Positions 5,522 to 40,570 of a stretch of DNA of 64,000 nt are shown here, in pieces. The notes under the pieces were generated by a model. That model ran no database searches. It had not been told where the DNA came from and was given only the letters and a program-made list of their open reading frames with translations. Origin of the DNA: Rhizophagus irregularis. Its lineage: Eukaryota; Glomeromycota; Glomeromycetes; Glomerales; Glomeraceae. The DNA lies in the NCBI RefSeq assembly GCF_026210795.1, contig NC_089446.1, positions 496,001-560,000 on the forward strand. Direction: 5' to 3'. Both the position numbers and the translations under genes were made by a program. The first letter of the stretch is position 1. The number at the start of each line of letters is the position of its first letter.

Positions 5522-5766
5522 TACCGCCATCCATTTAATGATCGTGGCGTGGCGCGCGCTTGATAATTCTCTTTAGATATTGATCTGTCTTCTATTTCAT
5601 TATAATCTAGACTTGTTTTATTTCTAATGTAAACCCGTTAAACTTTTTTTATTTTTTCTTTTTTTAGTGCTGGTTCTTCTTTTCTTGTTCTTAGTGCTAG
5701 TAGAAGCGTAGTTTTAATGTAACAGACAACATTCACTCCTTTTTTAGAAATAAAGTAACTAAAATA
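5522..5766 (+). mobile_element. Small retroposon with 18-bp target duplication
   Basis: 245 bp flanked by identical copies of AATAATGGATCAATAGAT (5504-5521 and 5767-5784). The right end is A-rich (AAATAAAGTAACTAAAATAA), including an AATAAA-like signal. The left part is GC-richer (GTGGCGTGGCGCGCGC). There are no inverted ends. This is the signature of an RNA copied by LINE machinery, either a SINE or a retroposed transcript end. The parent gene is not identifiable here. Confidence 0.65.
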
Positions 5767-16440: not shown

Positions 16441-18340
16441 GTGGTTTATTTATAAAAAAAAAATAATCAGTGGGTTGGTTATACACAAAATAAAAGGAAC
16501 GTAATACGCTGATTTTATATTTGGACAGATTGATTGGATTGGATTGGATTGATTGATTTAATTAAAGGAGTATTTGGCTGATCCGCAGGACTGGCCTTCA
16601 ATTGTATGTTGCGTAACAATTTTTACGTAACTATTATAAAAAGTTATTCAAAATATGAGTAACTCAGAGACGTATCGGTCGTATCGCGCAATTTATCAAA
16701 TATCAATATCAGCAATTGCATCATGCACTTTTAAATAATATACGAAAAAATGATTACAATAAGCGTAATAAAGGTCTAATACTTCAATTTTAAGTATGTG
16801 TTAGAAATTACTAGTTAGTTGTTTAACAAAGTAACGCGCGGGTTACGCCTATGTTTAAAAATTAATAATTGTCATTGCGTAACAAATTATATGTGGTTTA
16901 GGCGGTAGTATGTTCTTGTGTATCTGTTACGGTATTTGCTTTATCGCTTTTTAGGTATGAAACTTTAACCGGTATCAGGTATGCTTTCGATCTTACTAAA
17001 CTTTTTTTTTAATTTAATTACCTAATTGTTTTATTTTCCGGGGGGTTTTTTTTTTCAAACCAAAAAAAAAAATTGATTTTAATTGATTTTTAAAATCAAA
17101 ATATTTTTTTTTTTAATTTTCTTTAAAATATTTTATTTTTTCAAGTTAAATTTTTTTTTTGCTTATTAATTATTAATTTATTAATCGTTCTTCGTTGTAT
17201 TTATTTATTTTCAACCAACACTAATTGAATGACAAAAAATTTGGTTCAGACATTAAATAAATAACTATTCTTTTAACTCTTTTTATATTTAGGCAAATTA
17301 CTTATTCTTAAATGATTTTTTAATTCACCCAAATCTTTTTACATATACTAGTTGATCAATTGATTTCACCGACGAAACACAAAGCAGTGATCGACCAAAG
17401 AATGAAAATTCCATCTTAAGGGAAATTGAAATACGGAAAAATTTGAAAGGGATATAACAAAGAAAGAATTAGAGAATTAAAAATTTTTAGAATCATTAAT
17501 ATTTTAGCAAAATTTGAAACAACGAAATTAAAAAAAAAAACAAGAAAAAAGAAGTTGAAGATCAATAAAAGCGAATTTTTTTTAAAAAGAAAATGTTTGT
17601 ATGTGAATAATTTAATTTTTATATCTTTTATTTTATTTAATAATTGTATTACAGCAAAATTCAAAATATACGGGACACTTGAGAAATTTGATTGTCAGGC
17701 GGGTAGCCGGGTTACTCGGCAGTAGGTTATTTATTAGAAAAGTATAAATAAACCCGTGACATGAGTATAATCATAAAAAACCTGTTATGACTTATGAAAT
17801 AAATTAGCCTTTTTTATACTATCTTATTTTAGCGATTTTTGAACACAATATCCATAATTTTTTTTATTTTTTTTCTTAATGATCTACAGCTAAATATCGA
17901 AATATTATAATTATTATTGTAGTACTATAAATTCATGAAAGAGTCATAAACTTGATTGTATTTTTTTTTTATAAAAAAAATTCCCTTTCTTTTTCTTCTT
18001 TTTTTCTTTGTTTACATATCATGCGTGCGGAGTTTTCTCACTGATGAAAGAATTTATTTCTTTTTTTAAGTGTCTCATGATTTATTTATTTATATTAATA
18101 ATTAAAAATAAAAAATAATAAAGAATTTTATATTCCATTAATAATAAGAAGATGATAAGAATATTCCAAAATTAATTTTTTTTAAAAAAAATTATAATAT
18201 TGTACTATGTTTTACGAATGTAATATCAAACTTTTATTTGGCGATGACTTTCCTATTAAGGATAAAGACAATTCATATTGAAAGATTGCCAATTTCGTAA
18301 CGTTACAAAAACTTGAAATTTTCGCCGATCTATCATTGAA
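16441..18340. other. Intergenic, AT-rich, no gene seen
   Basis: It includes a short GATTG microsatellite near 16530-16555 and many T and A runs. The open frame at 17416-17664 (minus) is low-complexity Phe/Leu and is not supported. Confidence 0.5.
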
Positions 18341-18348: not shown

Positions 18349-18480
18349 AATACTCCAATACGTCCAACTTACTCGTTCAACTTTAAACCAGAAAATAAAT
18401 AAATAAAAACATGCCAACTAACACCTTAAAAGATTCAAATCATTATATCGATTGGTTAGAGAGGTCAATTGCCGATGAAC

Positions 18481-21400
18481 CGGTATTATTTAAATAGTTA
18501 CGGTATCATCGATTGACACTGTTACGGTATGATCATTTTTTTACCGGTATGAAGATCCATTTGTGCATCATACTGTACTTACACCTTTGGTTGTATAATA
18601 TTAATACAACCAAAGTTACAGGTACGGTACAAACTGCCATACAAATATCGTACCTGTATTGTAAATATTGTAAACCGCAGTAATACAACAAAAAATAAAC
18701 ATGTTGAAAAGTCTAAAAGGAAAAATGAAATTAAAATCTATGTAAAAATTAATAAAAAAGATTTCGATTTGTATAAACAATTGCTAATTTATGTATTAAT
18801 TATTTTTATTTACATTTATTTTACAATATATTGTTACATTAATTATTTTGATTTTAATAATTATTATTCTTCAACTGTAGCATATTGAAATTTGAAATAT
18901 TTTTTTTTAAAAAAAGCTCTACATATTATATTATACATATTAAATCTTATACAAATTTTTGGCAAATTAATAATATTTTTAGCAAAGTAATAATAGCATA
19001 TTTCATTAATTATTATTTAATTCCATTTCCAACTTTTTAATCTGCAACTCTTTTAATTTTAGATCAATTTCATTCTGTTTGAGTTGCATTTTCCTCTCTT
19101 CTAATGCGATCTTGCGCTCTTCAATTTCCATTTCAGTGTCGTCATCATCATAATCAATCTTTGCCTTTTTTGAAGCGCGTTGCTTTCCTTTACTGGTTGT
19201 TCTTTTGGATAGTTTTTTAACTATTTTTTTTATAACATTAAAACATGATAATACCCATCATAAATAGCAATCAAATCACAAAGTTTATTACTTTACCTGA
19301 TCTTTTATTAGCTTGCATTTTTTTACCAAAGTCACTTTTATCTTTACTAGACATAGGAATGCCTGTTTGTTGATGTATTTTTATTCTTTTATAGATGCAC
19401 TCATCATGTTCCCATCCCCTAAATATAAAAAATAAAATAGGTATCAAATTATTTATTATATAATTATGCAGATAGTAAAAAATTACCTTAGAATTGCAAT
19501 TTTTAATTTCAATGATTTGCCTGTTCGATTAATCATTGCATGAGCACTTTCAGCAATATTAGTATCAAATGGTGTTGTCTGCCAATCTTCATATGACATT
19601 AAGGAATAATGATATGTTAATGAACCCAGAACCCATGGTTTCTGATAATATTCTAGCCAATCTAAAAAAAATAAATTGACATAAATTAATATAATTAATA
19701 CGATTGATAATCTAATAAAGCAAAACATTATATACTTACTTTGTATACCATCTTCATTACGCATTTTAATTTGTCCAAATATTTGATTAATTTCTTCAGA
19801 AGAATTTGCTTTAAGAATTTCAAGCATATCATGTTTTGTATCTGCACAATAAGGGTAATGGTCAACATTTCTATAAAATTATAAAATTATTAGCAAAAGT
19901 TTTATTATTAATTTAAAAAATATAAAAATCTTACCTTTTATAATGGATACGACATGATTTAAATACATATTGTAAATGTTCTTTAGCTTTTCGTGTAGGA
20001 TCCATTTTTTTCATAGCCTTTCCTAATCCAAGGGCTTGGGCTTGATCTAAATCAGCTAAAACACAAACCCAACCATCACCATGTATATGCCGAAAATGGG
20101 CAGGCTTATTAGATAATTTTTCAACTATTTCAAAAAAGGCTTCAAACATTCTTTGATATGCCTCTTTAGTTGCAATATTAGTAAAAATTCTACAAAATGT
20201 TATAACTATAAAGAATGCATTTAAATTAATTAAGAATTATTAATAAATCAAATTGAAAAATTAAAATTGTTAACTTACTAGTCCTAGATTTTTCTTCATA
20301 TGCATTAAACTCTAATTCATTAATGTCACCATAAACACGTTTAAATGAAAGATCAACTTCGAAATATTTAAATTCAATGCATTTTGCTGCTTGTTCATTA
20401 GTCATACATAAAATCATTATATGACCATCATTAAAAAAACCTAAAAATATATATTAAATTATTTTATATTATGTGTAAAGTAAATAATAAATATATTAAT
20501 AACATTTTTACTTACTAATTTTTTGGATATAATTCTTTATTTCTTGAGTATTTTGATAAAAATCATATACCACTCCAAGAATCCCTTGACCATGTGGATG
20601 TTGCTGATTATGAACACGTGCAATTAAATATCGAAGCTTGTCAATATTATTGAGAGAAGCATGGATTTCAGCTACCATTTCTGTTCCAAATACACTTTTA
20701 AGCAAATGACCTTATTAAAAAAAAAAAAGTTAATAATAAGAAAATTTATAATGATATAGCATAATAAAATAAGTTAAACTAACCTGACACTAACTGCTGT
20801 GCAGTTATATCTATAAGTTGTTCTTTAGAATTTTCAATTAGTTTCCTCAACTCTGATTTAATACAAGTAGGAGTCTTAGATAAAGGTGGTGGTGGATGTG
20901 TATGAATTCCTTTAGATATCAAGATTACAAAAGGAAATCTTTGCAAATTTAAAGGTGTAAGCATCTTGAATTCAACTGAACAAGGAAGTCATTTTAATTC
21001 AAGTTTTTGAGTTAAGCCCTGAAAAAGATGGACTGATTCTAATAAAAAAGTCATTAATTTTTTAATAAATACAATTATATTAAAAAAAAAGTGGAATTTA
21101 TTTACCACAATATTTCTTATGACAACCTGTAGGGTACAACATATTGCAATTTGTATCATCCTATATAAATTAAATAAATAAAAAACAGTTCATAAATTAG
21201 TAAAGTTATAAATTATTATATATTAATAAAAAAGTAATGAAGATGCATACTTCCTGATCTAAAATTTTTCCCTGATTTGCAAAAAGTGACTTTAAAAGAT
21301 TAATATCTACACCAGCCTTAATTTGCAAAGACATATGACCTTTTTCATTTGGTTTCCATTTATCACATCCTATGAATTCACTCCATTGATTTGTAGTATG

Positions 21401-22575
21401 AACTAAATAGTGTTTAATTTTAGCTTTACCACCACAAGTAAAAGTATTATTTGGATAAGGACATCGGGTTTTTATTGCTGTTAAGTATTCCCTAAAAGAA
21501 AGTAAAGATTATTAAAAAATGCATTATAAAATTATAATTTGAGACTATTATAACTTACGTTTGAGTAAGTACTCTTGTAATCCTATTTTCTGGAGTATTA
21601 TTATAACCATCTTCACAGATAAATGGATTGGTTTCAAGATCTACCTTAGTATGTGATGCTTCCAAGATATTTGGACCAGCTAATTGACAAGTTTTAATGC
21701 CTCCGCAATGTTTTATTGCCTTTTTAACCTGGACCCATTTTTTATTTTCTGGATCATCCATATCTTTACCAAAAAATGGACATCCAACGTTAGGAGAACC
21801 ACCGCTGCCATCACAGAGTGAGTATTGGATCTATTTTTTTAAAAAAAAGTGTTAATTTTTGGTAAAACATCTTTATATCAAAAATTACTTACATCACGAA
21901 ATGCTGCCTTAGGATCCTCCCAGTTTTCAATGTGATAAATATACGCAACTCCTTCTTCTGATGTTTCTGGATATTCAATAGGAACTAGAGAGTGTCTTAC
22001 ATCATTGATTTTAGTATCCCTTGTAAATACTGCTATTTCAGATTCTGTATCATCTTCTGCATTTAAGTTGGTTTCGGCTGTCTAAATAAAAATGTATTTA
22101 TTATTTACATCTATTACAATTTTTTTATATAATAATAATTTAATATTAATTAAACTTACAAATGGATCAAAGTTCAATGGCTCATCAAATTCATCTAAAT
22201 TTATATATTCATATGGTGTAGACATTTTATTAAAAATTAAGAAAAAATGATAAAAAATAATAAGGTTAATAAGTTGAGAAAAAATTAAGGACGAAGGAAG
22301 AAGAAAAAGTTTAAATCAGCAAAATCATTATCGAGATTTAATAAATCTGATCATTTTTGGTACTAAATCTGCAGAAATGTTTCACAAATCAAATAAGAGC
22401 TAAGAGTACAGGTATTATTTGATAAATATGATTAACAATACCTAGAGGTTTGAAATTTTCCATTGTATATCAGTATGATCAGTATGATTAGCATAATTTT
22501 GTATCGTACCTATATCTTATCAATCGTACCTTACCTATCATATAATATAGTACCGTAACTAAATACTATATACTC
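18481..22575. mobile_element. Mutator-like element, 4.1 kb, with transposase gene
   Basis: It is flanked by the 9-bp direct repeat CCGATGAAC (18472-18480 and 22576-22584), inside codon 24 of the kinase gene. The terminal 25 bases of the two ends are imperfect inverted repeats: 17 of 25 match, including AGTTACGGTA. Subterminal regions at both ends are rich in GGTA/TACC motifs. A 9-bp duplication is the hallmark of the Mutator superfamily. The single gene inside (22225 to 19006, minus) is transposase-like. Confidence 0.85.
19006..22225 (-). CDS. Mutator-like transposase, disabled by one stop
   Basis: Thirteen exons, each with a GT donor and AG acceptor: 22225-22160, 22081-21893, 21830-21559, 21491-21251, 21160-21106, 21038-20784, 20710-20516, 20440-20279, 20189-19935, 19870-19740, 19661-19487, 19418-19297, 19220-19006. 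The N-terminal half has Cys/His-rich stretches (TRCPYPNNTFTCGG, GCDKW, CNMLYPTGCHKKYC) that look like DNA-binding zinc modules, then HTHPPP. The core has three acidic positions expected of a DDE RNase H-like fold: FEVDLSF, HGDGWVCVLADLDQ and TNIAESAHAMINR. The C-terminus is a basic patch plus a charged coiled coil. An in-frame TGA at 20989-20991 breaks exon 6, and the joint of exons 8 and 9 is one base out of phase. The element is therefore probably no longer autonomous. MULE assignment rests on the 9-bp duplication and the DDE layout. Confidence 0.7.
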
Positions 22576-25013
22576 CCGATGAACATATCAAATATTATAA
22601 ATATTCAGACTTTAAAAATATTCGACCAATAGGAATTGGTTCTTATGGAGAAGTCAATCGTGCTAATTGGAAAAATACTGAACACTTTTACGCTTTGAAG
22701 TCTTTTAGTAATGATAAACAGACTCTTGAAGAAATCATAAAAGAGGTATTTATTTAAATATATATGAATTAATTAAATTAATGGTAATTTATAATACTTT
22801 ATATAATACGTCGCAGTTAAAGTTACACAGAAGTGTAGATGATCATGGAAATATCATAAGATTGTATGGAATCACAAAAATAGAAACCGGCAAGTATTAA
22901 GAGAATTTAAATTAAATTTAATAAATTTATTTACACTTTTCTGGTTTCTTATTATTTAAAATATTTATTATTTAGCAGTTCCAACTCAACAGATAAAAAA
23001 TTATTCATTAGTCTTGGAATATGCCAATGGCGGTACACTAAATACTTATTTAGGCAAAAACTTTAATGATCTGGATTGGGACGATAAATCTCGTTTAGCA
23101 TTACAACTGGCAGATGCTGTAGGGTTTTTACATGATAATGATATTGTTCATCATGATCTGGTAAGTGGTAATATTTGAAAATAATTATTACCTCTAATTG
23201 ATACGTGTTAAATGATTAATGAGAATTTTTTTTTGTACAATTAGTACTCTGGAAATATACTTATACATCAGAACAGTATTAAATTAACAGACTTTGGGTT
23301 ATCAAAAAAAGTTACTGAAGCATCAAGTATCACATCGAAAATACAGGGTGTAATACCCTACGTGGAGCCGAAGAAACTCAATGATGAAAATTATAAATTA
23401 AATAAAAAGTCAGATGTGTATAGCATTGGAGTTTTATTGTGGCAAATTTCAAGTGGACATGAAGCATTTGAAGATATTGAACAAGACGTTAGTTTTATTT
23501 TATCTTTAATAAAAGGTAAAAGGGAAAAAATTATTGATGGAACTCCTGTTAAATATAGTAAATTATACACAGGTAATAAATTAAATAAAATGATTAACAT
23601 GTTTATATTATAAGCATCATTGATATTAATTTCTTTACTGATTGGTTAGAATGTTGGAAATATGAATCAAATGAACGTCCAAATATGCACGAAGTTATTT
23701 TGACGCTCAAAAAAATCATTTCTCCTGAAATTATTGTTGATAGTCTCAATGAACTAAATGAAGACAATAAAAGTACTTATTCATCGGAAAAATACGGATC
23801 AATTTCAAAAACAAGCAAAGAGACTGTAGATATAAATGATGATCTGGATATTAACAACAGTTTAATATTGAGTACTATTTCACATATTGCATCGTTAGAA
23901 AATAGTAATATATATGAAAGTAAGTTAAGTTCGCAAAATTGTATGGATGTGGTGGAATTTGAAAATACTAGTTCATCTAACAAGTCAGACACGTTAGACC
24001 AAATATCAGTAGATATGAATGAGTCAATATCTGTTGCAATGGCTAATAATTTAATTGAATATATAATTACAAAACACGATAGTGGAATTACCTTAGACGA
24101 TCAAATTCAACTACTAATTATTAAGAAAATATTACAATCTGATCAAAATTTTAATTATCTATCAGATACTTTGGATCAACAACTACTTATTAAAAGAATA
24201 TGGCAACCGAATCAAAATTTTAATAATCTTATAGATTGGTTATCAAGTAATAAAGACGTATTAATTTATGGATGGCTACTTGGATTATTTTATTATTATA
24301 ATATCGGTGTTGATGAAAAAGAAGATTATAGCATTAAATCATTTGAACTGTTTTCAAAAGCAGCGAATAATAATTATTCGATTGCACAAGTTTATCTCGC
24401 TAAATGTTATTACGATGGATATGGAACAACCTTAGATCATCTTTTGGCCCATAAATACTATCAAGAATCAGCAAAAAATGGAAGTATTATTGGGCAATTT
24501 TATTTAGGAAATTTTTATGAATCTGTAAATAATGAAAAAGAATCGGTTTATTGGTATAAAAAAGCTACTAAAAGTGGTAATACAATTGCAAAACTTCATC
24601 TTGCGAATTGCTATAGATTAGGAAAAGGAACTGAAAAAGATGAAATCAAAGCATTTCAATATTATGAAACCTTACCCTGTAAAAAATACATTCCAGAATA
24701 TTTCCGTTATATATCCATAATTATGCTCGTAAATCCGTAAATGTTCAGTGTGCCGCAACTGTTGAGAAAATAATCCGTGATTTTATTTGTAGAAATGGAT
24801 TTTAAACGGATCCAAAATTTCATTATTAAATAACTAAAAATTTATCAAGCAATTTTTTACATAATTAACGAAAAATGGAATTTAACCGGATTTAAGATTA
24901 CATATTATTAAATAACTGTCAACCTACTTATTACAAATATATATTGAAAATATGTAAATTACAAACATATATATTATTACAAACACAATAAAATACGCAA
25001 ATTTCATAAAAAA

Positions 25014-28000
25014 TTATCGAAATTTAATCTGATTTTCTCGGTCAATAATGTAAAACTCATTGTTTGACATCTTAAGAAATCCGACATTTCTACAAATTGC
25101 ACTTACATTAATTACTTCAAAAGCACCATGATCTCGAAACTTTAATGGCCCATGTCCAGAAGGATGAGGATTTCGTACCCATTGCACATATGCTAGCATA
25201 GACCAGTCACTGTTGTATTGATGCGAAAAAAAATATTGTACTTCTCCAAAGAATTCACGCTCTTCCAAAATAACAGGTGCATTTGGGCGATGTGCATTTC
25301 GGTCAACTAGAAGCTTCGCCTAAATAAAGAAAATTAGTAATATTAAAATATTAAAAGTATTAAAAATGATGATATATATACACATACAGCAATGCAGTAA
25401 TTTGTGCGTGCCACATCACCCTTGCGATTTGACAATTTTGAATTAATTGTTAAATCATTTTTGGTTTGAAGTTTTCCATATTTTTGAATGGAATTTGTAA
25501 TTAACTTAAATGAAATATATTAGAAGATTAAAGGTTCTTTTAGAATAAAATTTAAACAGTAGGAAATGTGCTTACTGAAAGTTGATTTGCATTTCTGTTT
25601 AATGCTGTCACATAATAGGCTCTTAAGCGCTGGATCTCAGTTCTATTCATGCAATATTTGCGTGATAGTGAATATAGCACTTCTTCAGCACCGTCAGTAG
25701 TAAAATAATTGTTTTCTGAGTAATTTAATGTTTTTTTTGAATTTTTACTAATGAGCCTTTGATATATATTAGGTTTATATTGAAGATGTGAAAACTGGGT
25801 CCACATTGTAATTTGATTTTGGAGGTTTGTATAAGGATGTTGTGTAGAACGAACCAAAGGCAATAGCATTCCACATAGCCTTTCCATGGGATACTGCCAG
25901 GTTGCCCATGCAGGCCCAGTATTATATATTGAATCAGCAATATGTAATAGATAATGGTAGGAAATGAGCGCTGCTGGAAGTCGTGCAGAATTATTCTGAA
26001 TATATTCTCTATTAAATGTTAAATATATAATTTAATGTCAAAGTTACGGATAAATGGATATGAAAGCATACAGTACTTTTCATAATACGTGATAAATTCA
26101 CAAAATAACCTTCTAATTTCTGTTAATTCTTCCATACTGATAATATGTTTAAGGCAAAGCTTTGTTGCATGTACGAATTTTGCCCATCCATTTAAATGCC
26201 TAAATAAATTTAGCAAAATCTATCTATTAAATAACATCAAAAAATAATGTGCTTTTATCACTTACAAATTAAAACATTACCTTTCTGGAAGATAGCTTTG
26301 TAAAAGTGGAAGTGAATATAATACCACCCAATTCATCCAGTCTTCTGCCTTAAATCCAGCTGAATGTTGCTGAATATTAATAGGTGGACGACCAAAATCA
26401 AATGGCATATTTTTTCGATTTTTTTCCATTGTTTTTCCTATTTCTGTCCAATCTTTATTAGGAATGATATAATTAGAATCAAAGTCTTGATCATCTTTGA
26501 AAAAAATGCCAGACCAATGCCGAAGCATTGCTGGTGCAACATTTTCAAACAACCCATGCATAATATCAACAGGAAAAGATACAGGAAATCTAATTGAGTT
26601 TAATTCAAATAAGATGCTGCGGCCATTTACCCCTGTAAATATAAACAAGTAAGAATTGTTTATATGAATTTGCTAAATGTATTTAAAATAAATGTACCTC
26701 GATCTTGTATTTCACGTTTACGTGATGATCCAGATGCATTTTTTACAACAGTAACATCACGTATATAATCTTCATGTGTTCTCAGCGGAAGGTTTTCAGA
26801 ATTATACTGACATCCTGACATATTCATTGGAGGTTTAAGTGGAAAATATACATGTCGATTTCCTTGACAATATATTCCACGAATAGAGCAAAATCGGCAT
26901 GCTTTATATGAATTATGTCCTGTTGTATACATCACTTTGGAAAGTGCTGGGATATCACCAGAAATACTTAAAATGTGTGCATGGAGTGTAAAGGTATTTT
27001 CTGTTAAACCATCAATACATTGAATACCTTCTGTATTGTTATTATGAAATAAAAATTAATATATTATATTAAATACATTATAATAAAAATAAGTATGCAA
27101 AACCTTGCAACTGCTTTAATTCATCGATTAGTGGCTGTAGAAAAGAGTTAAAGTTTTTTGGTGCTTTTGGTCCTGGAATAAGTGCAGAAACCATTAAATT
27201 TTCTCGCTTAACACGTATATTAGGTGGTAAGTTTGCATTTATAAAGAGTATAACCCAACAATCATCTCTTTTTTGACGAAAAATTTGATATCCATCAATT
27301 GATGCCATTAGAGCTATATCCTGACAGTCTGAAAAGAAACCAGATGTGGCTAAAGTTTTGTATTGAAGGCCATCAAATACATCACCTATCTGATTACCAA
27401 GAGTATATTCATAAGTAGAAGTATAATTATATCTGTAACGAAGAATTTCTGCACGAGTTTTATCTTTATATTGGGTCTGAAATGAATCAATAAGTGACCA
27501 ATAAGCAGCTTTTTTTCGAGATATTTGAGATTCTTCATCAACTTTATAACGTGGCTCTTTACATTCTGGACAAATATTTTTGTTAATAAGCTCGCCTGTG
27601 AATGCCACACATGAATTTATACAACAATCTACAAGAGTTGGTTTTAATGACATAAAATTTCCAAGAAACTTTCGAAGTTTGTAAAGTGTAATTCCAGGAA
27701 TTTCAAAAACTTTAAGAATTTCGTTAAATGCAGCTTCTGAAATATTGTGTTTATCTTTAATTTGAAGAAGCTGTAAACCTTTAATTAAGTTTTCTGAATA
27801 ATTATTAGAATTTATGCAAAATTTAAAATAAATTCATAATGTTTATTTACTGTAGCCTACCAAAATCTTCACATTCAATATTTTCATTTCCTTCCCCATT
27901 ATTATTATATTCTTCATCTTCATCTTCATTTTCGCCATTATTGTATTCATCAGTTTCACTATCATAAATGTGTTCTTCTTCAATATTATTATCATTCTCT

Positions 28001-28278
28001 TCTTCACTATCCACTATTTCAATCTGCTGATCATTTATATTATTCTCTTCATTGCTATAATCTTGATCTTCTAGAATATTATTATTAGGTGATAATGTCA
28101 TTGGAATAGTTTGAGAAATAGAAGTAGCTAGGCATCGCTGTGATGCAGGTATATTTTCTGAGTTGATCCAAGTTTTTTTCTGTTTTGTCACATGTTTTGC
28201 ACGAGTTGACTTACTAACTAATTTACCTAACCCACTTGTTTCTTGAAGACACCAAATACAAGTGCATAAAACAGCCAT
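25014..28278 (-). CDS. Plavaka/CACTA transposase (TNP2-like)
   Basis: Eight exons join in frame: 28278-27861, 27793-27104, 27030-26698, 26632-26281, 26199 to about 26085, 26008-25576, 25504-25388 and 25319-25014. The N-terminus has CTCIWCLQETSGLGKLVS with a downstream His, a Cys/His module found at the start of these transposases, followed by an Asp/Glu-rich linker. Then come CCINSCVAFTG...CPECKEPRY, the first acid in LMASIDGYQIF, the family signature SALIPGPKAPKNFNSFL, a zinc-like CRFCSIRGIYC, and the second acid in FPVDIMHGLFENV. YPMERLCGMLLPLVRS is conserved with the second copy at 40971-41396. The donor after 27104 (GTTTTG) is atypical. No stop interrupts the frame, so the protein may be functional and the element may be active. 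Confidence 0.82.
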
Positions 28279-28548
28279 ATTAAAAATGTATAAATTTTGA
28301 CAAGATTTACTAGACTGTATAATATAATACTCAAATTTTTCATATTATTACCTTAGATCATATTTAAGCTTTTATATACTTTATTTGTGTCGATCAAATT
28401 TCAGAAACTTTATTAATTAAAACGCGTAAACGCGTAAATAAATTAAACTCGTATAAATCCACTATTTAAACTTTATAAATAAGCTCTTCAACTCTTTTTT
28501 CTTTAATTTTTTTCTATTTAATATTTCACGAAATTCTTTAAATTTACC

Positions 28549-29925
28549 ATGTCCCAAAATAATATACAAATTGATAAACTTACTTGTGAGCAGCGTCAAC
28601 AGTTCTTTCTTGCTCTATTTAATAATGAACCATCTCTCCTTAATGTACTAAATACTGAGCAACGACAGAAATTATATACAGCACTGATGACAATTGACCC
28701 CTCACTTAAATCTCTAAATGCACATAGCACTATATATGGGACTACAAATGAACAAGCATGTTTTAAATTATTTTTACAAATATTTCGTAATTGTTGTAAT
28801 TGTTGTGTAGTAGTAATACATGTATTTGTTTCAGTTTCCAAAAGGATCAGCAATGAATCCAATCAAGATTCAGGAATTTAAACAAATTAAAAATGATTTT
28901 CAATGGCACGAACTTTTGAAGTTAGATAAAGATCAATATTTAAATTTTCGAGTAAATACAGTATATTATTACTTGTTTATTAGTAATGCACCAGTTGTCT
29001 GATTCAAATTAATTTATTACAGAATGATCTTCGAAATAGAGCAGCTTCCAGGCTTTCACGTGGTGAATCAGTATCTCGTCAGCAAAAAGGAAAAGTAGAA
29101 GAAGTTATTAGGGATGTAAGTATTTAATAATTAAATTTATATTTGCAGAAAGTAAATAAACTAAAAATTCATTATTATTGTAGTTTAAAGAAGCAAACCC
29201 AACATTTCCAGTCTCTGAGGCTGATTTTATCCTTCGAGAATGGCTTGCTTTATATTGTAATAGCATGGGTAAGTGTAAATTTGCCAAATTAAGTATAAAC
29301 TTTATTTTTTTTTAAAAAAAAAAAATTTATTTTACAGTTGACCAGGCGAAAAAAAAGAAAATTGCCGAAGCAAAGAAGCATGGTCTTCCACCACCACCAC
29401 CAAAAAGAAAAAATGTCCAACCTCCTAAAAAGCATAATAGTATGGATAATAATAGAACAACAACAACTGAAAGCTCACAAGATTCTGAGAGTACTTCAAA
29501 TAATTTATATAGTGTCTCACAGTTTTAGATCGATCGACAAGTACAATAATATTATTTTCAAAATAGGAGTTACTCCACCATCTTCTACTTCGTCTACTGA
29601 TGCACCACTTGCAATAACTCCACAAGTTAACGCTCCTACTGCAACTGAAACAATGGTTTTCACTTTCTCTACCAATGAATCAAATGCTCCAGTTGTAACT
29701 AATATATCATCTACCTCCGAAGTCAATATTCCAGCTACAACTGAATTTGCTGTAGAAACTCCTGGTATTTTGGCAAGACATTTTATTTTCTCAACAAATT
29801 TATTGTACTCATGCATTATTCAATTTGCAGGTAAAAAAGGTAGAGGTAAAAGAAAAAAAGAAGTTTCCCAACAGAAACAAACATCAACTAGACAAACACG
29901 ATCCAGTAAGAAATCTAAACAGTAG
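28549..29925 (+). CDS. Second gene of the Plavaka element, unknown function
   Basis: Several exons are visible: 28549 to about 28785 (MSQNNIQIDKLTCEQRQQFF, then a LNVLNTEQRQKLYTAL echo), about 28840-28953 (MNPIKIQEFKQIKNDFQWHEL), 29023 to about 29116 (NDLRNRAASRLSRGESVS), about 29183-29270 (FKEANPTFPVSEADFILREW), 29339-29528 and about 29567-29925. The last parts are Pro/Lys-rich and Ser/Thr/Pro/Ala-rich and end with KKGRGKRKK and TRQTRSSKKSKQ, which look like nuclear-targeting tails. The first intron phase is unsettled. Accessory genes that bind the element ends (TnpA-like) are known in CACTA elements. A similar job here is a guess from position, size and basic tail. Confidence 0.55.
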
Positions 29926-29999
29926 AGTTGGAGTTATACAATGTAACCATTGTTTGGTTAATAAATTAATAAGTAATTGGTATACTAAAGTATTAGTGT

Positions 30000-30450
30000 T
30001 TTAACCGAATTTTATCCATTTCATTATAATAGGTTTTCGGCGCTTTATCTGGATTTTATCCATCTGAAAAATTTTCAGTGCTTTATCCGAATTTTATCCA
30101 TTAATTATTGTAATAAAATTTCAGCATTTTATCCGAATTTTATCCATTTTATTATTGTAATAAAATTTCAGCATTTTATCCGAATTTTATCCATTTTATT
30201 ATTAAATAAAATTTCAGCATTTTATCCGTGTTTATCCATTTTATTAATAAGTAAATTTCCAGTGTTTTATCCGAATTTTATCCATTTTATTAATAAGTAA
30301 ATTTCCAGTGTTTTATCCAAATTTTATCCATTTTATTATTAAGCAAATTTATTTTTTTTTTATCCGTTTTATTTTAATAAATTTTCAGTATTTTATCCAT
30401 TTTACTAATTTAAATAATTCAGTAAAGTTTTAGTAATTTATCCGAAACTT
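30000..30450. repeat. Subterminal repeats of the Plavaka element
   Basis: About eight units of roughly 45-55 bases share TTTATCCGAATTTTATCCATTTTATTA and TTTCAGCATTTTATCC. Such subterminal arrays bind the element's own proteins in characterised CACTA elements. Confidence 0.75.
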
Positions 30451-32273
30451 ATCCATTTATTAATCGATGAATTTTCAATTATTTATCAGTTTATCATCAG
30501 TTTATTATCAGTTTTATTAATTAAACGATTTTATTTTTTTAACAGTAAAGTTTCCATATTAATTCCGTGAATATGAGACCTTTATGGAAAAAAAATGGAA
30601 ACTCTTGTTTATTAATGTAAACGGAATAAAAACGGAATTAAAAACGGAGTAATTTTTTTTACAGGGTTAGCTAACAAAGAAATTGTAGATGCTCAACTTA
30701 AACTTGGTGATTGTTTTTATAATGGAATTGGAACCAAATTGGATATAACACAGGCAAAATATTGGTATGAAAAAGCAGCAAATAATGGAAGTATTATAGC
30801 AAAAAATAATCTTAAAGATTATTACAATGAAAAAATAAGATTTGAAATAGACAAACATAAGAAAATTAAGTTTTACTATAAAATGATATTCTCAATAAAA
30901 AGATTAACCCAATTTGGATTGTACCATATTAATAAAATATTTTTAAAGACAAATTATGATAAATCGGTTTATTATTTGCAGAAAGCAGCAGAAAATGGAT
31001 GTAAGTTTGCACAATTTAATTTAGGTGGATGTTATCAATTAGGGCATGGTGTAAGAAAAGATATAAGAAAAGCATTTGAATTATATAAGAAATCAGCTAA
31101 ACAAGAATACATAAATGCACAATCTCAACTTATTTATTGTTATGAATATGGATTAGGAACTGAAATAAATAGAGTAAAAGCATTGGAATTAGTTAAAATA
31201 ATGGCTGAGAAGGGATTTAAACATGCACAATATTTATTAGGTTTACATTACATAACCGGAGAAGGGGTTGATAAAGATGAAATAAAGGCATTTAAATTAT
31301 TTGAAAAACTTGCTAAAGAAAGTAAAAAATGTCAGTCTAATAATAATAAGATTAATGAGCAAAAAGATTTTGAGTATTTTAAAATCTTAATGAAGTATGT
31401 GAATTCAAACTCATTATACCAACTTGGATATTGTTATGATAAAGGAGTTGGTACAGAACTTAATTTAACAAAAGCATTTGAATTATATAAAACAGCAGCT
31501 GAGAAAGGGCATAATGTTGCACAAAATGTATTGGGATATTCTTACGAGAATGGTATAAGAATAGAAAAAGATTTAAAACAAGCTATTTATTGGTATAGCA
31601 AGGCAGCAGGCAATGGATATGACAAAGCACAATATAATTTAGGCAGATGTTATAAAAATGGAAATGGTGTTGAAAAAGATGAAAAAAAGGCATTTGAGTA
31701 TTATATGAAATCAGCTGAACAAGGTTATTTAAATGCTCAATTTCAACTTGGATATTGTTACGATATAGGAGTTGGAACAGAAATTAATATAACAAAAGCA
31801 TTTGAATTATACAAAATAGCAGCTGAAAAAGGTTATAGCATGGCACAAAATAATTTAGGAAACTTATATGAGCATGGTAAAGGTACAAAAAAGGATTTGA
31901 AACAAGCTGTTTATTGGTATAACAAGGCAGCAGAAAATGGAAATGAAATAGCACAATATAATTTAGATAGATACTATCAAAACCCTATAAAAACGTTTTG
32001 TTTATAAATTATACATAAAATAGTTACATAATGTTCAATGTGTTTATTATTCGCTCATAAATTAGCCATATTTTTAAAATTGCATTTTTTAAAATACTTA
32101 AAATGTCCGATAAATGTTTTGATACGTGTATAAATAATGGAGAGTTTTTACAAATATACAAAATATATCCAATAAATGTACATTTAAACAAATCATAAAA
32201 TTGTAATTTGCAATTTATACAATATTTGTACAGCATTTATATAAACTTAAACGTACAAAATATGTGCAGAATA

Positions 32274-32413
32274 GTGTTATTAAACCAAGTAGCCAAACTA
32301 TTATTATAACGATCAATGAATTACTTCTCATAAGTTAGGTTCACTTATGAGGTTCTGATTATAATAATCATGTTTCATTCGCAGAATCTAACCAGTGATC
32401 AGCCTAATAACAC
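32274..32413. repeat. 140-bp hairpin element
   Basis: Ends GTGTTATTA and TAATAACAC are inverted. Inside, ATTATTATAA pairs with TTATAATAAT, and CTCATAAGT pairs with ACTTATGAG around a 7-base loop. The whole stretch can fold back. No target duplication was recognised. Confidence 0.45.
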
Positions 32414-34072
32414 TTTCTTTACTCCCACCAATCTTTTCACAATTTTTTGATATTGTTTAATTAATATATTTTATAATATAATAATTATGTAGGATTAATA
32501 ATTGTCTAAAATTTCTCCAAACTCTTTATCTACTATATAATATATTCCATTAAGATTAAAAAATCCTACACAATGATCAATTGCAAAGGCATCAATAAAT
32601 TCATGTGCACCATACTTTGAGAATGACAAAAGTCCTACATTATCTTCTCTAATATTCCACCCCATTCAACCGATCAACAAAGGTTCTAACCTTACATTTC
32701 ATGTCTCAAGTGTCTAGGTTATATCCTTCGTGGTCCACCTATGGTTTTAACCCATGTCCGTGATATACTTTGACTTGTCATGCTGTGTCATAAAAACAAA
32801 TCATGCTAATTAATTTAATCCAATAATATATTATTATACTCACTTATAGTTATATACGGACATTTATGTCTGTGATATTTGTTAATAATGCTCCTTGTCA
32901 GATATGGCTGTGATATTTGTTGTCAATTGCTCATGATGATACTCCTTGTCAGGTATGGACATTTATGTCTGTGATATTTGTTGATGATGCTCCTTGTCAG
33001 ATATGACCGTGATATTTGTTGTCAATTGCTCATAATGATGCTCCTTGTCAGGTACGGACATTTATGTCCGTGATATTTGTTGATGATGCTTCTTGTCAGA
33101 TATGGCCGTGATATTTGTTGTCAATTGCTCATGATGATACCCCTTGTCAGGTACGGACATTTATGTCCGTGATATTTGTTGATGATGCTCCTTGTCATAT
33201 ACGACCATGATATTTGTTGTCAATTGCTCATGATGTTACTACTTGTCAGGTATGGACATTTATGTCTGTGATATTTGTTGATGACGCTCCTTGTCAGATA
33301 TGACCGTGATATTTGTTGTCAATTGCTCATAATGATGCTCCTTGTCAGGTACGGACATTTATGTCCGTAATATTTGTTGATGATGCTCCTTGTCAGATAT
33401 GGCTGTGATATTTGTTGTCAATTGCTCATGATGATACCCTTGTCAGGTACGGACATTTATGTCCGTGATATTTGTTGATGATGCTCTTTGTCATATATGA
33501 CCATGATATTTGTTGTCAATTGCTCATGATGATACTACTTGTCAGGTACGGACATTTATGTCTGTGATATTTGTTGATGATGCTCCTTGTCAGATACGAC
33601 CATGATATTTGTTGTCAATTGCTTATGATGATACTCCTTATCAGGTACGGACATTTATGTCCGTGATATTTTTTAATGATGCTTCTTGTCATATACGACC
33701 ATGATATTTGTTGTCAATTGCTCATGATGTTACTACTTGTCAGGTATGGACATTTATGTCTGTGATATTTATAATAACCTTTGTCAAGCACAGACATTTA
33801 TGTCCGTGATAACCTTTGTCAAGCACAGACATTATGTCCATGATATTTGTGATAACCTTTGTCAAGCACAGACATTTATGTCCATGATATTTGTGATAAC
33901 CTTTATCAAGCACAGACATTTATATATGTCTGTGATATTTGTGATAACCTTTGTCAAGACAGTCCATGATTTTTGTTATACTTATGATAATCTTTGTCAA
34001 ACACAGACATTTATGTTCATAATATTTATTATACTTATCTTTCGTCTTATGATAACCTTTATCAAGCACAGA

Positions 34073-35315
34073 CAGCGCGGAAAATCCATTATAATTTAAC
34101 CAGTTTTTCCGGTAAATTTCTGATAAAACTGGTAAAATCTTATAATCCCGGAATTGTTCCGGTCGTGGCGTAGCAGATTTCCGGAATATTTTGTAAATAC
34201 CGGAAATTTCATTTAATAAATTTATATCGCAAAAAAGTTTTTATCTTTAATTTTATTATTTATTATTTCAGTAGTTTATTACAATATGATTATTTAAAGC
34301 CAGTATATCTTTTCTGGTTACTCCATAGCATAGCGAACATGCTTTATATCACTTTGATGATCATTTGCCGATCACAAGTTTCATTTTATTAAAAAATGAT
34401 TAAATTATGAAAAAGTGCAAGGCAAAGTAAATGCCTAAATAAGAAAAAAATAAAACATGCCACCTTTTATTGTTGTATAACTTTAAATTAAATAATTTAT
34501 ATAATTTTTAATTTTTATATGCAAAATTATTAATATGTGATAATTTGAAGTTTCGGGATAAAAATTGAAGGCCGAAGCCGAATACGCAAAGCCGAAACTT
34601 GAAATTTTGCATGAACATTCCTTTTATTATATATAATCTGTAAAAAAAATAATGCAAGGTTTCGACCTATAATGCAGGTTTTTTGCTTATAGAGAAATTA
34701 GCCAATTATTTGTTATTAATATATTTCTAATAAAAAAGATTATTTACATCATTAAAGATAATGAAAAACTTTTAGTTGAAGATGAAGATGATAATAGTTT
34801 AAGTGAAGATAATAATGATGAGAATATTGAAAATAATTTAGAAATAATAGAAAGTAATATAGATAATCTGTTTGAAATATTATACTAAACATGGTTAAAT
34901 TATTAGTACTATAATATAATTATTAGTATTTGTATTAATTTTTATGTTTTATATAAATTTTTAATTAAAATTAAAATTTTGTGAAGTTATTTGTAAATTT
35001 TAAACATTTATTATATTTATTATTGTGTAAAATTGATCTGTCACGACATTTGTATTATGTGATAAGATCAAATAAATGATCAGCAAATGATCGGCAAATT
35101 AGTGATAAAATAGAGATGTTTGCTATGCTTTACTCCATATTGTATATGCACGAATAAAAAAAAAGAAAAGATTATTATATATTGTGTAATACCATCTAAA
35201 ACTGGAATTTTTTTTTAATTCCATAATTCCATACCGGTTGAAAAAATAAATTTCCAGAATTTTTATATTTAACCGGAATTTTTCTGAAATTTTTCCAAGG
35301 TTTTTTTCCGCGCTG
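34073..35315. mobile_element. hAT-like non-autonomous element M6, with nested MITE
   Basis: Ends CAGCGCGGAAAA and TTTTTCCGCGCTG, flanked by AGCACAGA (34065-34072, 35316-35323), inside the left arm of the foldback element. CAGCG fits YARNG. The right arm has no counterpart insertion, so it arrived after the palindrome formed. Subterminal sequence contains CCGGAAT/ATTCCGG-like motifs (TTTCCGGAATATT, AACCGGAATTTTT). Its middle is taken by MITE copy A. Confidence 0.82.
34327..35129. mobile_element. Mutator-like MITE, copy A
   Basis: 803 bp with ends AGCATAGCGAACATG and its inverted, slightly diverged partner ending CTATGCT, flanked by the perfect 9-bp duplication TTACTCCAT (34318-34326, 35130-35138). 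Inside, 34740-34888 reads as an acidic tail (LVEDEDDNSLSEDNNDENI) ending in TAA. This is possibly the last remnant of an ancestral transposase. Confidence 0.82.
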
Positions 35316-38300
35316 AGCACAGACATTTATGTCCATGATTTTTGTTATACTTATAATAATCTTTGTAAAGCACAGACATTTATGTCTGTAATATTTATTA
35401 TGCTTATCCTTTGTCTTATGATAGATAACCTTTGTCAAGCATAAACATTATTTATGTCCATGATTTTTGATTTTTTGCACCCATCCATCCAGTATTTTAA
35501 TTATAAATAAGACAATTTTATAATTTTTGACTGCATATTCATTTACCAACTTCATTAATAAATATTTTATATCACCTTATAACTATAAAAAAGGCAATTT
35601 TTTTTCAAGTTTTACACATTAATTTGGCCAGGTTTAAAATAATTTTGCACAGCAAAATTTGTCAGAATTATTTGGCCAGAATTATAATATAGATATAAAT
35701 GTCCAGTTTGCAAATTTGGCCAGAATTATAAAATGGACATAAATGTCTGGTTTGCAAATTTGACTAGAATTATAAAAATGAACAGTTTTTGTAAATTTGG
35801 CCGGCATTATGAATATAGATATTTTAATCCTTATAGAAAGTTTTTGTGCTAAATTTATACCAAATGGACTCAGTTTAAAATTAGCTCAAATTTATGCAAA
35901 AAAATAATCCAAATTTAGTTTATAAGGTAACTTATCATAATCCAGTGATCATAGAAAAATAAATTATAGCTTGTTAGCTTTGTCTCATCAAGATAAGTTA
36001 AATGGTTAAATAGTGGTTTCTATCATCAATAGATGGGAAGTTATTGAATGCATTTAGAATTATTTAAGAATACAAAAAAATTCTTTCAAAAAAATGTTAA
36101 TATCTTATTATTTATTATTAATCCTAAAGGTATAAATCCACCATTTAATACATCTCAATACAATCCAATAAGCTGTATACTATCTTTTTACAATCACTTA
36201 ATGGCAAGTCAATGCAATTTAACTTTTAGCAATTTGGTATATTTAACCAAAAAAAAATTATTTTTATTGTATCTAGATAATCATTAAAAATTAGACATAT
36301 AAAAAGATATTTATATTGTTTTTATTATTTATTTGACATATGAAAGTATATATGTGATATCATGTTTTATAAACATTATATGAAAATTTTGTAAAAATTT
36401 ATAATTGATATGATAATTTACCAATTACTATAATTTTATTATTAAGTTTACTTTAATATAATATATTTATATTACATTATAAATTTATAGTAAAGAAAAT
36501 GTATAAAACTTTACCAATTATTATAATTTATTATTTTAATTGCTATAAAGTTTATTTATATTATTATATAAGTCAGTATATCTATGAAAGTTATATAAAC
36601 ATATTTGTTTAATGCAATTTAACATTTAAAAATAATTTGTTTTTATTTATTAATATTAAATATAAATTACTTAAAAATTGCCAGAATATTAGATCCTTTA
36701 ATTATTTTTTAAAAATTATCTATTAAATAAAATATTGATTTTTTTTTGTTTTTTATTTACTCTTTTTATTAGATCTAAAAATTGTCAAAATATTTAATTA
36801 TTAATACATTATATATGCATAAAAGTTATATAAACCTATTTAATGTAATTTAACAATTAACATTGATTTTATTTTGATTTTATTTATTTTTTTATTTAAT
36901 TCAAATTATTTTAAAAATTGTTAAAAAATTAAATGACTTGGCTCTTTTAATTATTAATATATTACATTTCTATTAGAAGTTAAATAAACATACCTATTTA
37001 ATGTAATTAGTATTTATAAATTATTTATTTATTTATTATTAAACACAATTTATTTTAAATATTGTTAGAAGAATTTTTCTATCATCAGGGTGATCACTAG
37101 TAACTGAAATTATGATGATTGAAGTTAGAAATTGGATCAACAAAATTATTTATTAAAAAAAAAAATTTGGGATTTACGAAAAAATGTACTAATAACATTT
37201 CTGTAACAATTACTGCAATATTTGCAAATCTAATTTTAATAATTTTGTTGATCCAATTTCTAACAATATTTAAAATAATTTGTATCTAATAATAAATAAA
37301 TAAATAAAAACAGAACAAAAATTAAGTTTTATATTAATAAGATAATTTTTAAATACTAAATTACATTAAATAGGTATGTTTATCTAACTTCCATAAATAT
37401 TTAATATACAAATAATTAAAAAAATCAAATCATTTAATTTTCTAATAATTTTTAAAATAAATTATAGTATCTAATTAGAAAAAAAAATAAAATCAAAAAA
37501 AAAATCAATGGCCTATTGATAAATAATTTTTTAATTGCTAAATTACATTAAATAGGTATGTTTATATAACTTCTATGCATATGTAATGTACTAATAATTA
37601 AAGAATCTAATTTTTTAACAATTTTAGAATAATTTGCATCTAATAAAAGAGGGAGATAAAATGAAAAAATTAATATTTTATTTAATAAATAATTTTAAAT
37701 ACTAAATTATATTAAATACTAATATGTTTATGTAACTTCTATATATTTTAATTTACTATTTAATTGAATTAAATATTAGATATATTTATGTAATTACTAC
37801 ATATATTTAATATACTAATGACTAATCATTAAAAGATCCAATTTTCTGACAATTTTTAAATAATTGGCATCTAATAGTAAAAAAAATAAAAAATTAAAAA
37901 ATCAATATTTTTTTCAATAAACCAATTTTTAAATTCTAAATTCAAAACAAATAGTATATCTTTACTATAACTTATATAATAGTATATGTAATGAATTGAA
38001 TAATTAATTGTTGAATTATATTAAAAAATCTTTATAGTAATTAAAATAATAAATTATAATAATTGATATAATATAATTTATAAGTTTATTTATATATCTT
38101 CCTTATAAATTCTTAATGTGATATATATATGTTAACTTCCATAAATATGTAATGTATTATTTTATAACAATTAAAAATGAATTATAGTAATTGTTAATAT
38201 TATATCAATTATAAATTTTGTAAATTTTCTTTACAAAATTTACATAATATTTATAAAACACAATGTTTATATATCTTTATATTTCAAATAAATAATAAAA

Positions 38301-40570
38301 TAATATCTAGTATATCTTTTTTATTGAATATATTGAATATCAAAATACAATAAAAAAAAATGTCTATTATTTGGTTAAATACACTAAAATGCTAAAAGCT
38401 AACTTGGCATTAAGTAATTACAGAAAGATAAAATATAACTTGTTGGATTATTTTTTGAGATATCTTAAATGGTGGTAGTTTCATATCTTTAGAATTAATA
38501 AATAATAAGATATTAACATTATTTATTGAAAGAATTTTTTATATTCTTAAATGCTAATAACTTTTTATTTAATGATAAGGCTACACAAATTCAAATTTTC
38601 AGTTTACTTCATCCAGCTGGGTCACTTTTTCAAATTTCAATAAAAAAAAGTTAATATATAAAAAATTTATCATGTGATCAGGACGTAATTTTATTGGCAG
38701 GTAAGTTTATCATGCGGCTGAGAACTTCTAGAGCAAAAATAAATTCCTCCTTTCTAAAAGTCAACCAATCAAATGTCACAATTATATATATAAACTTTTT
38801 TTACTAATAAACAATAAACCTGGGTCTCTGGGTTGATTTTAAATTTCAATGTTACGTGAACCGAAAAATTGAATTTGTGTGGCCTAATAGAAATATGAAA
38901 TTGCCACATTACCACCATTTAATATATCTTAATAAGATAAAGCTAACAAGCTATAATTTATTTATTTATGATCACTGGATGATTAGTTAAAATATTTATG
39001 TTCATAATGCTGGCCAAATTTACAAAATGTACATAAATGTCTGTTTTTATAATTCTGGTCAAATTTGCAAACCAGACTTTATGTCCATTTTATAATTCTG
39101 GCCAAATAATTTTGGCCAAATTTTGCTGTGCAAAATTATTTTGAACCTGGTCAAATTAATGTGTAAACTTGAAAAAAAATTGCCTTTTTTATAGTTATAA
39201 GGTGATATAAAATATTTATTAATAAAGTTGGTAAATGAATATGCAGTCAAAAATTATAAAATTGCCTTATTTATAATTAAAATACTTGGTTACTTTTATT
39301 CTTAATTTTAATTTTATTGGTAATATAATATCTAATGTTTGATCAGACTGGCCTGGAGCTGGAAGTATCATTCATAGAATATTTGTGATTATTATGTAAT
39401 CCAAATATATTCTAATAAAATGGTACATGATTCAACATTTAAAAAAAAAAATAAAAATAATTAAAATACTGGATGGTGGGTGCAAAAAATCAAAAATCAT
39501 GGATATAAATAATGTCTGTGTTTGACAAAGGTTATTATAAGACAAAGGATAAGCATAATAAATATTACAGACATAAATGTCTGTGCTTTACAAAGATTAT
39601 CATAAATATAACAAAAATCATAGACATAAATGTCTGTGCTTGACAAAGGTTATCACAAATATCATGGACATAAATGTCTGTGCTTGACAAAGGATATCAC
39701 AAATATCATGGACATAAATGTCTGTGCTTGACAAAGGTTATCATAAATATCACAGACATAAATGTCCGTACCTGACAAGTAGTATCATCATGAGCAATTG
39801 ACAACAAATATCATGGTCATATCTGACAAGGAGCATCATTAACAAATGTCACGAACATAAATGTCCGTATCTGACAAGTAGTATCATCATGAGCAATTGA
39901 CAACAAATATCATGGTCGTATATGACAAGGAGCATTATCAACAAATATTACGGACATAAATGTCCGTACCTGACAAGAGGTATCATCATGAGCAATTGAC
40001 AACAAATATCATGGTCGTATATGACAAGGAGCATCATCAATAAATATCACGGACATAAATGTCTGTACCTGATAAGGGGTATCATCATGAGCAATTGACA
40101 ACAAATATCATGGCCATATCTGACAAGGAGCATCATCAACAAATATCACAGACATGAATGTCCGTACCTGACAAGGAGCATCATTATGAGCAATTGACAA
40201 CAAATATCATGGTCGTATTTGACAAGGAGCATCATCAACAAATATCACAGACATAAATGTCCGTACCTGACAAGGAGTATCATCATAAGCAATTGACAAC
40301 AAATATCATGGTCGTATATGACAAGGAGCATCATCAACAAATATCACGGACATAAATGTCCGTATATGACTATAAGTGAGTATAATAATATATTGTTGGA
40401 TTAAATTAATTAGCATGATTAGTTTCTATGACACAGCATGACAAGTCAAAGTATATCACGAACATGAGTTAAAACCATGGGCAGACCACGAAGGATATAA
40501 CCTAGACACTTGAGATATGAAATGTAAGGTTAGAACCTTTGTCGATCGGTTGAATGGGGTGTAATATTCG

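Follow-up and report, generated by a model that had tools for sequence, protein, structure and literature searches.

A Rhizophagus irregularis kinase-Sel1 gene probably broken in recent time by two DNA transposons and a 3′ rearrangement

Introduction

Expanded genes such as those for Sel1 and protein kinases may also carry (partial) insertions of transposable elements, as stated in a passage of PMC11075540 that cites Dallaire et al. 2021. In excerpts of PMC8647823, Mutator-like elements are described near genes of highly expanded families of Rhizophagus irregularis, and the high-copy kinase and Sel1 genes of arbuscular mycorrhizal fungi are said to make up accessory sets that are specific to strains. 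Here we describe a kinase-Sel1 gene of R. irregularis that lies in a window of 64,000 nucleotides, the whole stretch of DNA that was analysed (C18:496001-560000); the genome searched comprises 146.7 Mb in 32 contigs, to which the C labels refer. The locus very probably held one kinase-Sel1 gene that remained constrained until recent times, after which it was struck three times, by a 4.1-kb transposon, a 6.0-kb CACTA-type transposon and a rearrangement of its tail.

Structure of the interrupted gene

The gene consists of seven coding blocks on the + strand (18411-18480, 22585-22745, 22817-22889, 22976-23160, 23245-23572, 23650-24674 and 30670-32007), which total 3180 nt, or 1060 codons including the stop, when both elements and one copy of each target duplication are excluded; their joined translation is 1059 amino acids long and holds a single, terminal stop. 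The first insertion falls after coding base 70, so that the start of host exon 1 (18411..18480), which is unbroken in both paralogues described below, supplies codons 1-23 and the first base of codon 24, and the second insertion falls between codons 614 and 615. The remainder of exon 1 and the sequence up to the point at which the last exon is interrupted (22585..24674), collinear with the paralogues, encode the kinase domain, a linker and the first Sel1 repeats, and contain four host introns of 71, 86, 84 and 77 nt (22746-22816, the GC-AG intron 22890-22975, 23161-23244 and 23573-23649). The last exon continues with Sel1 repeats at 30670..31983, where identity to both paralogues is 86% until 31981. 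The protein kinase domain (Pkinase, PF00069) was matched on 23245-23613 and the Sel1 repeats of the continued exon by PF08238 (E 2.1e-94), and this arrangement, in which the Sel1 repeats come after the kinase domain within a single gene, is collinear with the paralogues and can be aligned with a protein of R. diaphanus. An earlier sequence-only reading of this locus had given the same block sums, codon count and intact joined frame, with codon 24 completed across the first site and codon 614 ending at the second; all of these figures were reproduced, the last two by the exact join.

The closest relatives found in the genome are two paralogues on contig C8, the first (C8:3314900-3324800) 86% and the second (C8:2729000-2738900) 82-86% identical, and not near-identical as the sequence-only reading had supposed. 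Both carry each target once, have no insert at either site, and show exons and introns in matching order. The R. diaphanus protein C1646_758914 (P0001), itself a partial model, is unbroken across both sites at the protein level; its identity to the window gene is 84% in the protein-search table and 0.886 over 1003 aligned positions. The two group together, with a support of 0.986, in a tree built from six proteins, which suggests that the R. diaphanus gene is the probable orthologue. Because the two paralogues and the R. diaphanus protein cross both sites uninterrupted, the seven blocks are one gene: the paralogue alignment, chosen beforehand as the test of this point, was run and did not assign the blocks to different genes, an origin ruled out by the collinearity of the paralogues as well as by the R. 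diaphanus protein. The R. irregularis proteins that run unbroken across a site are all more distant than a near-identical copy would be: P0007 (81%) is unbroken at both sites, the partial P0226 (87% over 49% of the 3′ query) at the second site, and P0002 (75%) is the protein of the second paralogue.

As an alternative to two recent insertions, the sequence-only reading had offered an allele whose intact form may still segregate. In the one assembly covered, exon 6, the flank upstream of the gene and the 3′ block were each used as queries, and no second near-identical copy of the gene was found among the matches listed for the best-scoring candidates. Likewise, no unbroken near-identical protein from another R. 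irregularis isolate was present among the 120 matches listed of 363, 903 and 4427, which is weak evidence. The second paralogue has a frame shift near its 3′ end (locus positions ~5563-5594, reverse strand) and may be damaged or end early.

The two inserted elements

Both elements have the bounds proposed by the sequence-only reading, with flanking duplications, and their ends are fixed by other copies. The first is a DNA transposon of 4095 bp (18481..22575), whose likely genes lie on the - strand; it is flanked on the + strand by two copies of the 9-bp target CCGATGAAC (18472-18480 and 22576..22584), as read from the sequence. When the window's own copy is included, exact 9-bp duplications flank three of the five copies in which both ends were located (window, C16 and C20), whereas the duplication agrees at 7/9 bases in the C6 copy and at 2/9 in the C27 copy; in C28 and C15 a complete end is absent from the match. 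The inverted ends are imperfect: when the right end is reverse-complemented and set against the left end, 17 of the first 25 positions agree by eye. A target duplication of about 9 bp is typical of Mutator-like elements (MULE), and the first element shares with them this duplication and terminal inverted repeats, here imperfect. No transposase profile, MULE models included, matched its open pieces or a hand-joined reading of 674 amino acids. The label "Mutator-like" given in the sequence-only reading is a putative one, based on the duplication and the imperfect inverted ends. The C16 copy (C16:68000-75200), which has a perfect 9-bp duplication, lies by eye inside a helicase-like frame and carries its own insert of about 0.9 kb. 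Splicing-out of the first element as an intron was considered and rejected, since the acceptors near its right end, inspected by eye and not exhaustively, run into an in-frame TAA.

The second DNA transposon (24675..30666; 5992 bp) has the ends CCCTGTAAAA...TTTTACAGGG and is flanked on the + strand by a 3-bp target duplication, TTA, at 24672..24674 and 30667..30669. An exact 3-bp duplication flanks all three near-identical copies, the window's included (TTA, CTT and TAG), and all three relatives in which both ends were located (TGT in C21, TTT in C4 and TAT in C24); three further relatives were located by one end only. Its transposase coding region occupies open pieces on the - strand (25552..27833), in which the open reading frames match Tnp2 (PF02992) with E 5.2e-14 for one open piece and 3.8e-23 for the hand-joined pieces. 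CACTA/EnSpm elements usually hold a second gene besides the transposase, and a second gene, of seven exons, lies here on the + strand (28549..29905).

Tnp2 transposase, inverted ends and a 3-bp target duplication are common to the second element and the CACTA/EnSpm (CMC) type, but the termini CAC..GTG of that type differ from the ends CCCTGTAA..TTACAGGG of the second element. Because of the Tnp2 transposase, the short duplication and the ends CCCTGTAAAA..TTTTACAGGG, we group it with the CACTA/EnSpm type, minus the CAC..GTG ends. The sequence-only reading had called it Plavaka. A Plavaka model is held in Pfam, and none was among the Pfam matches of this element at E up to 10, which were Tnp2 and weak others. 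In the consulted portion of PMC12730594, target duplications of 2-5 bp are given for the CACTA/EnSpm clade, which the 3 bp found here fit; for Plavaka elements of other fungi the same portion gives a transposase related to EnSpm, duplications of 2-3 bp, and termini TGT..ACA or CATCA..TGATG. The second element therefore resembles Plavaka in its EnSpm-related transposase and short duplication, but its ends are unlike the termini given there. The domain match, to Tnp2/CACTA, does not back the label, which is close but unproved, because Plavaka is placed inside CACTA/CMC/EnSpm in an extract of PMC11075540.

The motif CCCTGTAAAAA occurs at 794 sites genome-wide, against 139 for the reversed pattern. 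An exact 3-bp duplication was found in 0/5 other CCCTGTAAAAA end pairs, which were picked by eye among the first 100 places listed. The motif was accordingly rejected as a genome-wide mark of this type of element, because by itself it does not identify such insertions. Among five copies of the two elements for which flanking frames were surveyed, the C21 copy of the second element lies by eye about 950 bases from a lipase-like frame. A near-identical copy at C3:711009-756278 appears to be in three pieces spread over 45 kb, which suggests nested insertions.

Loss of the 3′ tail

The sequence-only reading had described the gene as otherwise perfectly in frame, a statement that conceals a third lesion. 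At the DNA level the two paralogues remain homologous up to 31981 and, by comparison with R. diaphanus, homology reaches 31983; after the shared residues DRYYQN the R. diaphanus protein continues KSKEF, whereas the window gene reads PIKTFCL and a stop. Because family homology ends at 31981-31983, the stop and the seven codons before it (31984..32007, + strand), which comparison with the paralogues and R. diaphanus marks as unrelated DNA, are borrowed from repeat DNA. The segment joined to the broken end is a repeat of 634 bp (31985..32618, + strand) that is 97% identical to C18:4115086-4115715; nothing in the window matches the sequence lying to the left of this C18 copy. The frame of the first paralogue extends 3455 nt beyond the break, and the R. 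diaphanus model also continues past it; relative to the first paralogue, the window gene has lost about 1150 codons. Displacement of the tail to another place in the window was rejected, since the paralogue tail matched nothing outside 30600-32010 save Sel1 repeats at 24.2-24.7 kb and a 69-bp stretch at 17066.

Just downstream of the broken 3′ end lies a further large element (32651-40568), whose inverted ends are long and whose subterminal direct repeats measure 99 bp; end pairs resembling its own are present on several contigs. In the upstream flank, a short repeat (17617-17775) has many copies in the genome, often as closely spaced inverted pairs.

Past constraint and age of the insertions

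Over 1025 compared codons, the pairwise ratio of nonsynonymous to synonymous substitution rates (dN/dS) is 0.30 and 0.33 between the window gene and the two paralogues and 0.29 between the paralogues themselves, and the window gene holds no stop in these codons. At sites where both paralogues agree, it has 32 unique residue changes and R. diaphanus has 31. The window gene thus gives no sign of prolonged relaxed constraint. Over its 5992 bp, the second element is separated from its sister copy in C21 by seven substitutions and a single gap of 2 bp, and the first element differs from the C16 copy by 26 substitutions and 21 gap columns. The dN/dS values near 0.3, the 32 against 31 unique changes and the sister element with seven substitutions argue for recent insertions after long constraint. 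A random substitution makes a stop with a probability of 0.071, and 40 unconstrained substitutions would leave the frame without a stop with P 0.053; the clean frame is therefore a prediction of young insertions and no further surprise. Taken together, the target duplications, the low sister divergence and the constraint figures bear out the proposal of two separate, recent insertions with the frame kept.

Deposited gene models drawn from the two halves

After the first insertion the kinase frame is without its host start, and the next methionine is, by eye, in the RPNM motif past the catalytic core. The exon chain of the deposited R. irregularis protein OCT59_009756 (P0015, 585 amino acids) is reproduced letter for letter by the window. 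Its first coding exon, of 7 nt, lies inside the end of the first element (22475..22481, + strand; ATGATCA/GTATGA, the slash here and below marking the splice site), with the acceptor at 22608/22609. The left end of the second element holds a donor, CCCT/GTAAAA, and the model ends within this left end, reading through the donor to a stop.

All residues (666/666) of a second deposited protein, a "Sel1 repeat protein" of 666 amino acids (P0220; DAOM 181602=DAOM 197198), are also encoded in the window. Seven exons of the second element's plus-strand gene are followed in this model by an intron of 759 nt (29906..30664, + strand; donor CCA/GTAAGA) and then by host Sel1 codons in frame, the acceptor TTTTACAG/GG being the right terminal repeat of the element. 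This intron is unusual because the other seven introns of the model are 58-76 nt long; the model ends by way of an extra intron of 71 nt within the Sel1 repeats, which shortens the frame. The sequence-only reading had suggested that the Sel1 frame of the 3′ half might be expressed by itself, a suggestion that can now be made more precise: a model for the Sel1 half is deposited, and in it this half is fused to the second gene of the transposon.

RNA-seq fed annotation in both PMC10234402 (BRAKER2 and then long reads) and PMC6123716 (AUGUSTUS with intron hints), as set out in portions of these papers, and P0015 and P0220 presumably come from those annotations. Each of the two hybrid models has features suggestive of errors in prediction. 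In the region 22746-22975, the exon that precedes the GC-AG intron is replaced by a short stretch of KPA type in the models P0015, P0001 and P0007, which thereby lose about two dozen kinase residues that the model of the second paralogue, P0002, retains; the replacement is likely a systematic annotation error across the family models, P0015 alone having been mapped on DNA.

Discussion

The account that best explains the locus is as follows, the three hits being given by their position along the gene. The kinase-Sel1 gene very probably stayed under purifying selection until recently and was then hit by a 4.1-kb cut-and-paste transposon after coding base 70, by a 6.0-kb transposon of the CACTA type at the boundary of codons 614 and 615, and by a rearrangement that swapped the last ~1150 codons for unrelated repeat DNA. 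In the deposited models, a start codon, a stop and a splice acceptor that lie in the ends of the transposons serve to build two putative hybrid genes from the halves. The full-length protein of the original gene is probably no longer made, and the locus would therefore be a newborn pseudogene. Several points weigh against this account. The loss of function is something that we infer; the kinase part has no host start but may be readable from the ATG in the first element, as modelled in OCT59_009756, and the Sel1 half may be readable as a fusion. A gene that is still expressed in some form would likewise be expected to show an intact frame and a history of constraint. The identity of sister copies bounds the age of the insertions only if the copies have not been homogenised, and the orthology with R. 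diaphanus is drawn from a tree of six rows.

The same structures could reflect gene fission, the two halves being now expressed as two transposon-host hybrid genes, of which the kinase half would start in the first element and stop in the left end of the second, and the Sel1 half would be spliced behind the second element's gene via the right terminal repeat; the Sel1 fusion is conceivable because this repeat is a ready-made splice acceptor. That OCT59_009756 and the 666-amino-acid model are both encoded in the window letter for letter speaks for fission, as does the use of RNA-seq in the annotations described in parts of PMC10234402 and PMC6123716, from which we infer that the models derive. 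However, the 759-nt intron stands apart from the other seven introns of its model, in OCT59_009756 the exon preceding the GC-AG intron is replaced by one of only 10 nt, apparently through an error of prediction, and the 666-amino-acid model is cut short by its further 71-nt intron inside the Sel1 repeats, so that we regard fission as unlikely. In the open-licence literature, searched by title or abstract start, no paper was found that deals with splice sites used at the termini of elements of this sort in R. irregularis, and a narrow multi-term search of the same kind of literature gave no match on transposon-host gene fusion.

Removal of the second element whole, as an intron with the ends CCCT/GT...AG/GG, would take out a GT-AG interval of 5986 nt (24679-30664) and leave the junction E-T-L-P-W-L-A-N-K without a stop; such removal would keep the frame wherever the element is inserted, because 9 nt remain, including the 3-bp duplication, and a 6-kb intron could be missed by annotation, because one mapping step limited introns to 3000 nt according to a section of PMC10234402. 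The four host introns, however, are only 71-86 nt long, OCT59_009756 reads through the donor, and the left ends of the relatives in which that end was located start with CCCTATAA, which holds no donor, in 4/5 cases and with CCCCGTAA, in which the GT is kept, in 1/5. The failure of all five other CCCTGTAAAAA end pairs to show an exact 3-bp duplication also counts against it, and even then the 5′ part of the gene would stay interrupted by the first element. Its chance is slight because of the size so far from that of host introns, the left ends of the relatives and the deposited read-through. An assembly error, in which the gene is whole and the elements are misplaced, has in its favour only the general risk in repeats and is scarcely credible: the target duplications are exact, copies of the elements elsewhere share their ends, and the second insertion appears in deposited models from two different contigs, the left junction in P0015 and the right junction in P0220. 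The left junction of the first element has no second witness in the deposited models. A single gene broken by three recent hits hence remains the preferred account.

The locus offers base-level evidence, with age bounds, of a kinase-Sel1 gene broken by young DNA transposons, and it makes plain that some deposited proteins are hybrids of transposon and host sequence modelled on a broken gene. Were the terminal repeat on the right used as an acceptor in RNA, it would provide a simple route to new chimeric proteins; if this were general, young elements with the ends CCCTGTAA..TTACAGGG would fuse their own second gene to the adjoining exon.

Introners act as spliced introns in many genes. As presented in part of PMC9860276, they are likewise transposon-like, their ends can carry splice sites, and some families make target duplications, as does the second element; their median lengths are given there as 30-654 nt, in contrast to the 6 kb of the second element. 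Insertions into families such as that of the kinase-Sel1 gene are already in print for R. irregularis, as the passage of PMC11075540 attests, and the present locus is a well-resolved, recent and multiply broken case. Compared with what PMC11075540 and PMC8647823 report on transposons in or near expanded families, the sites, the duplications, the age bounds, the third lesion and the hybrid models are here resolved for one gene, and the hybrid gene models are newly noted.

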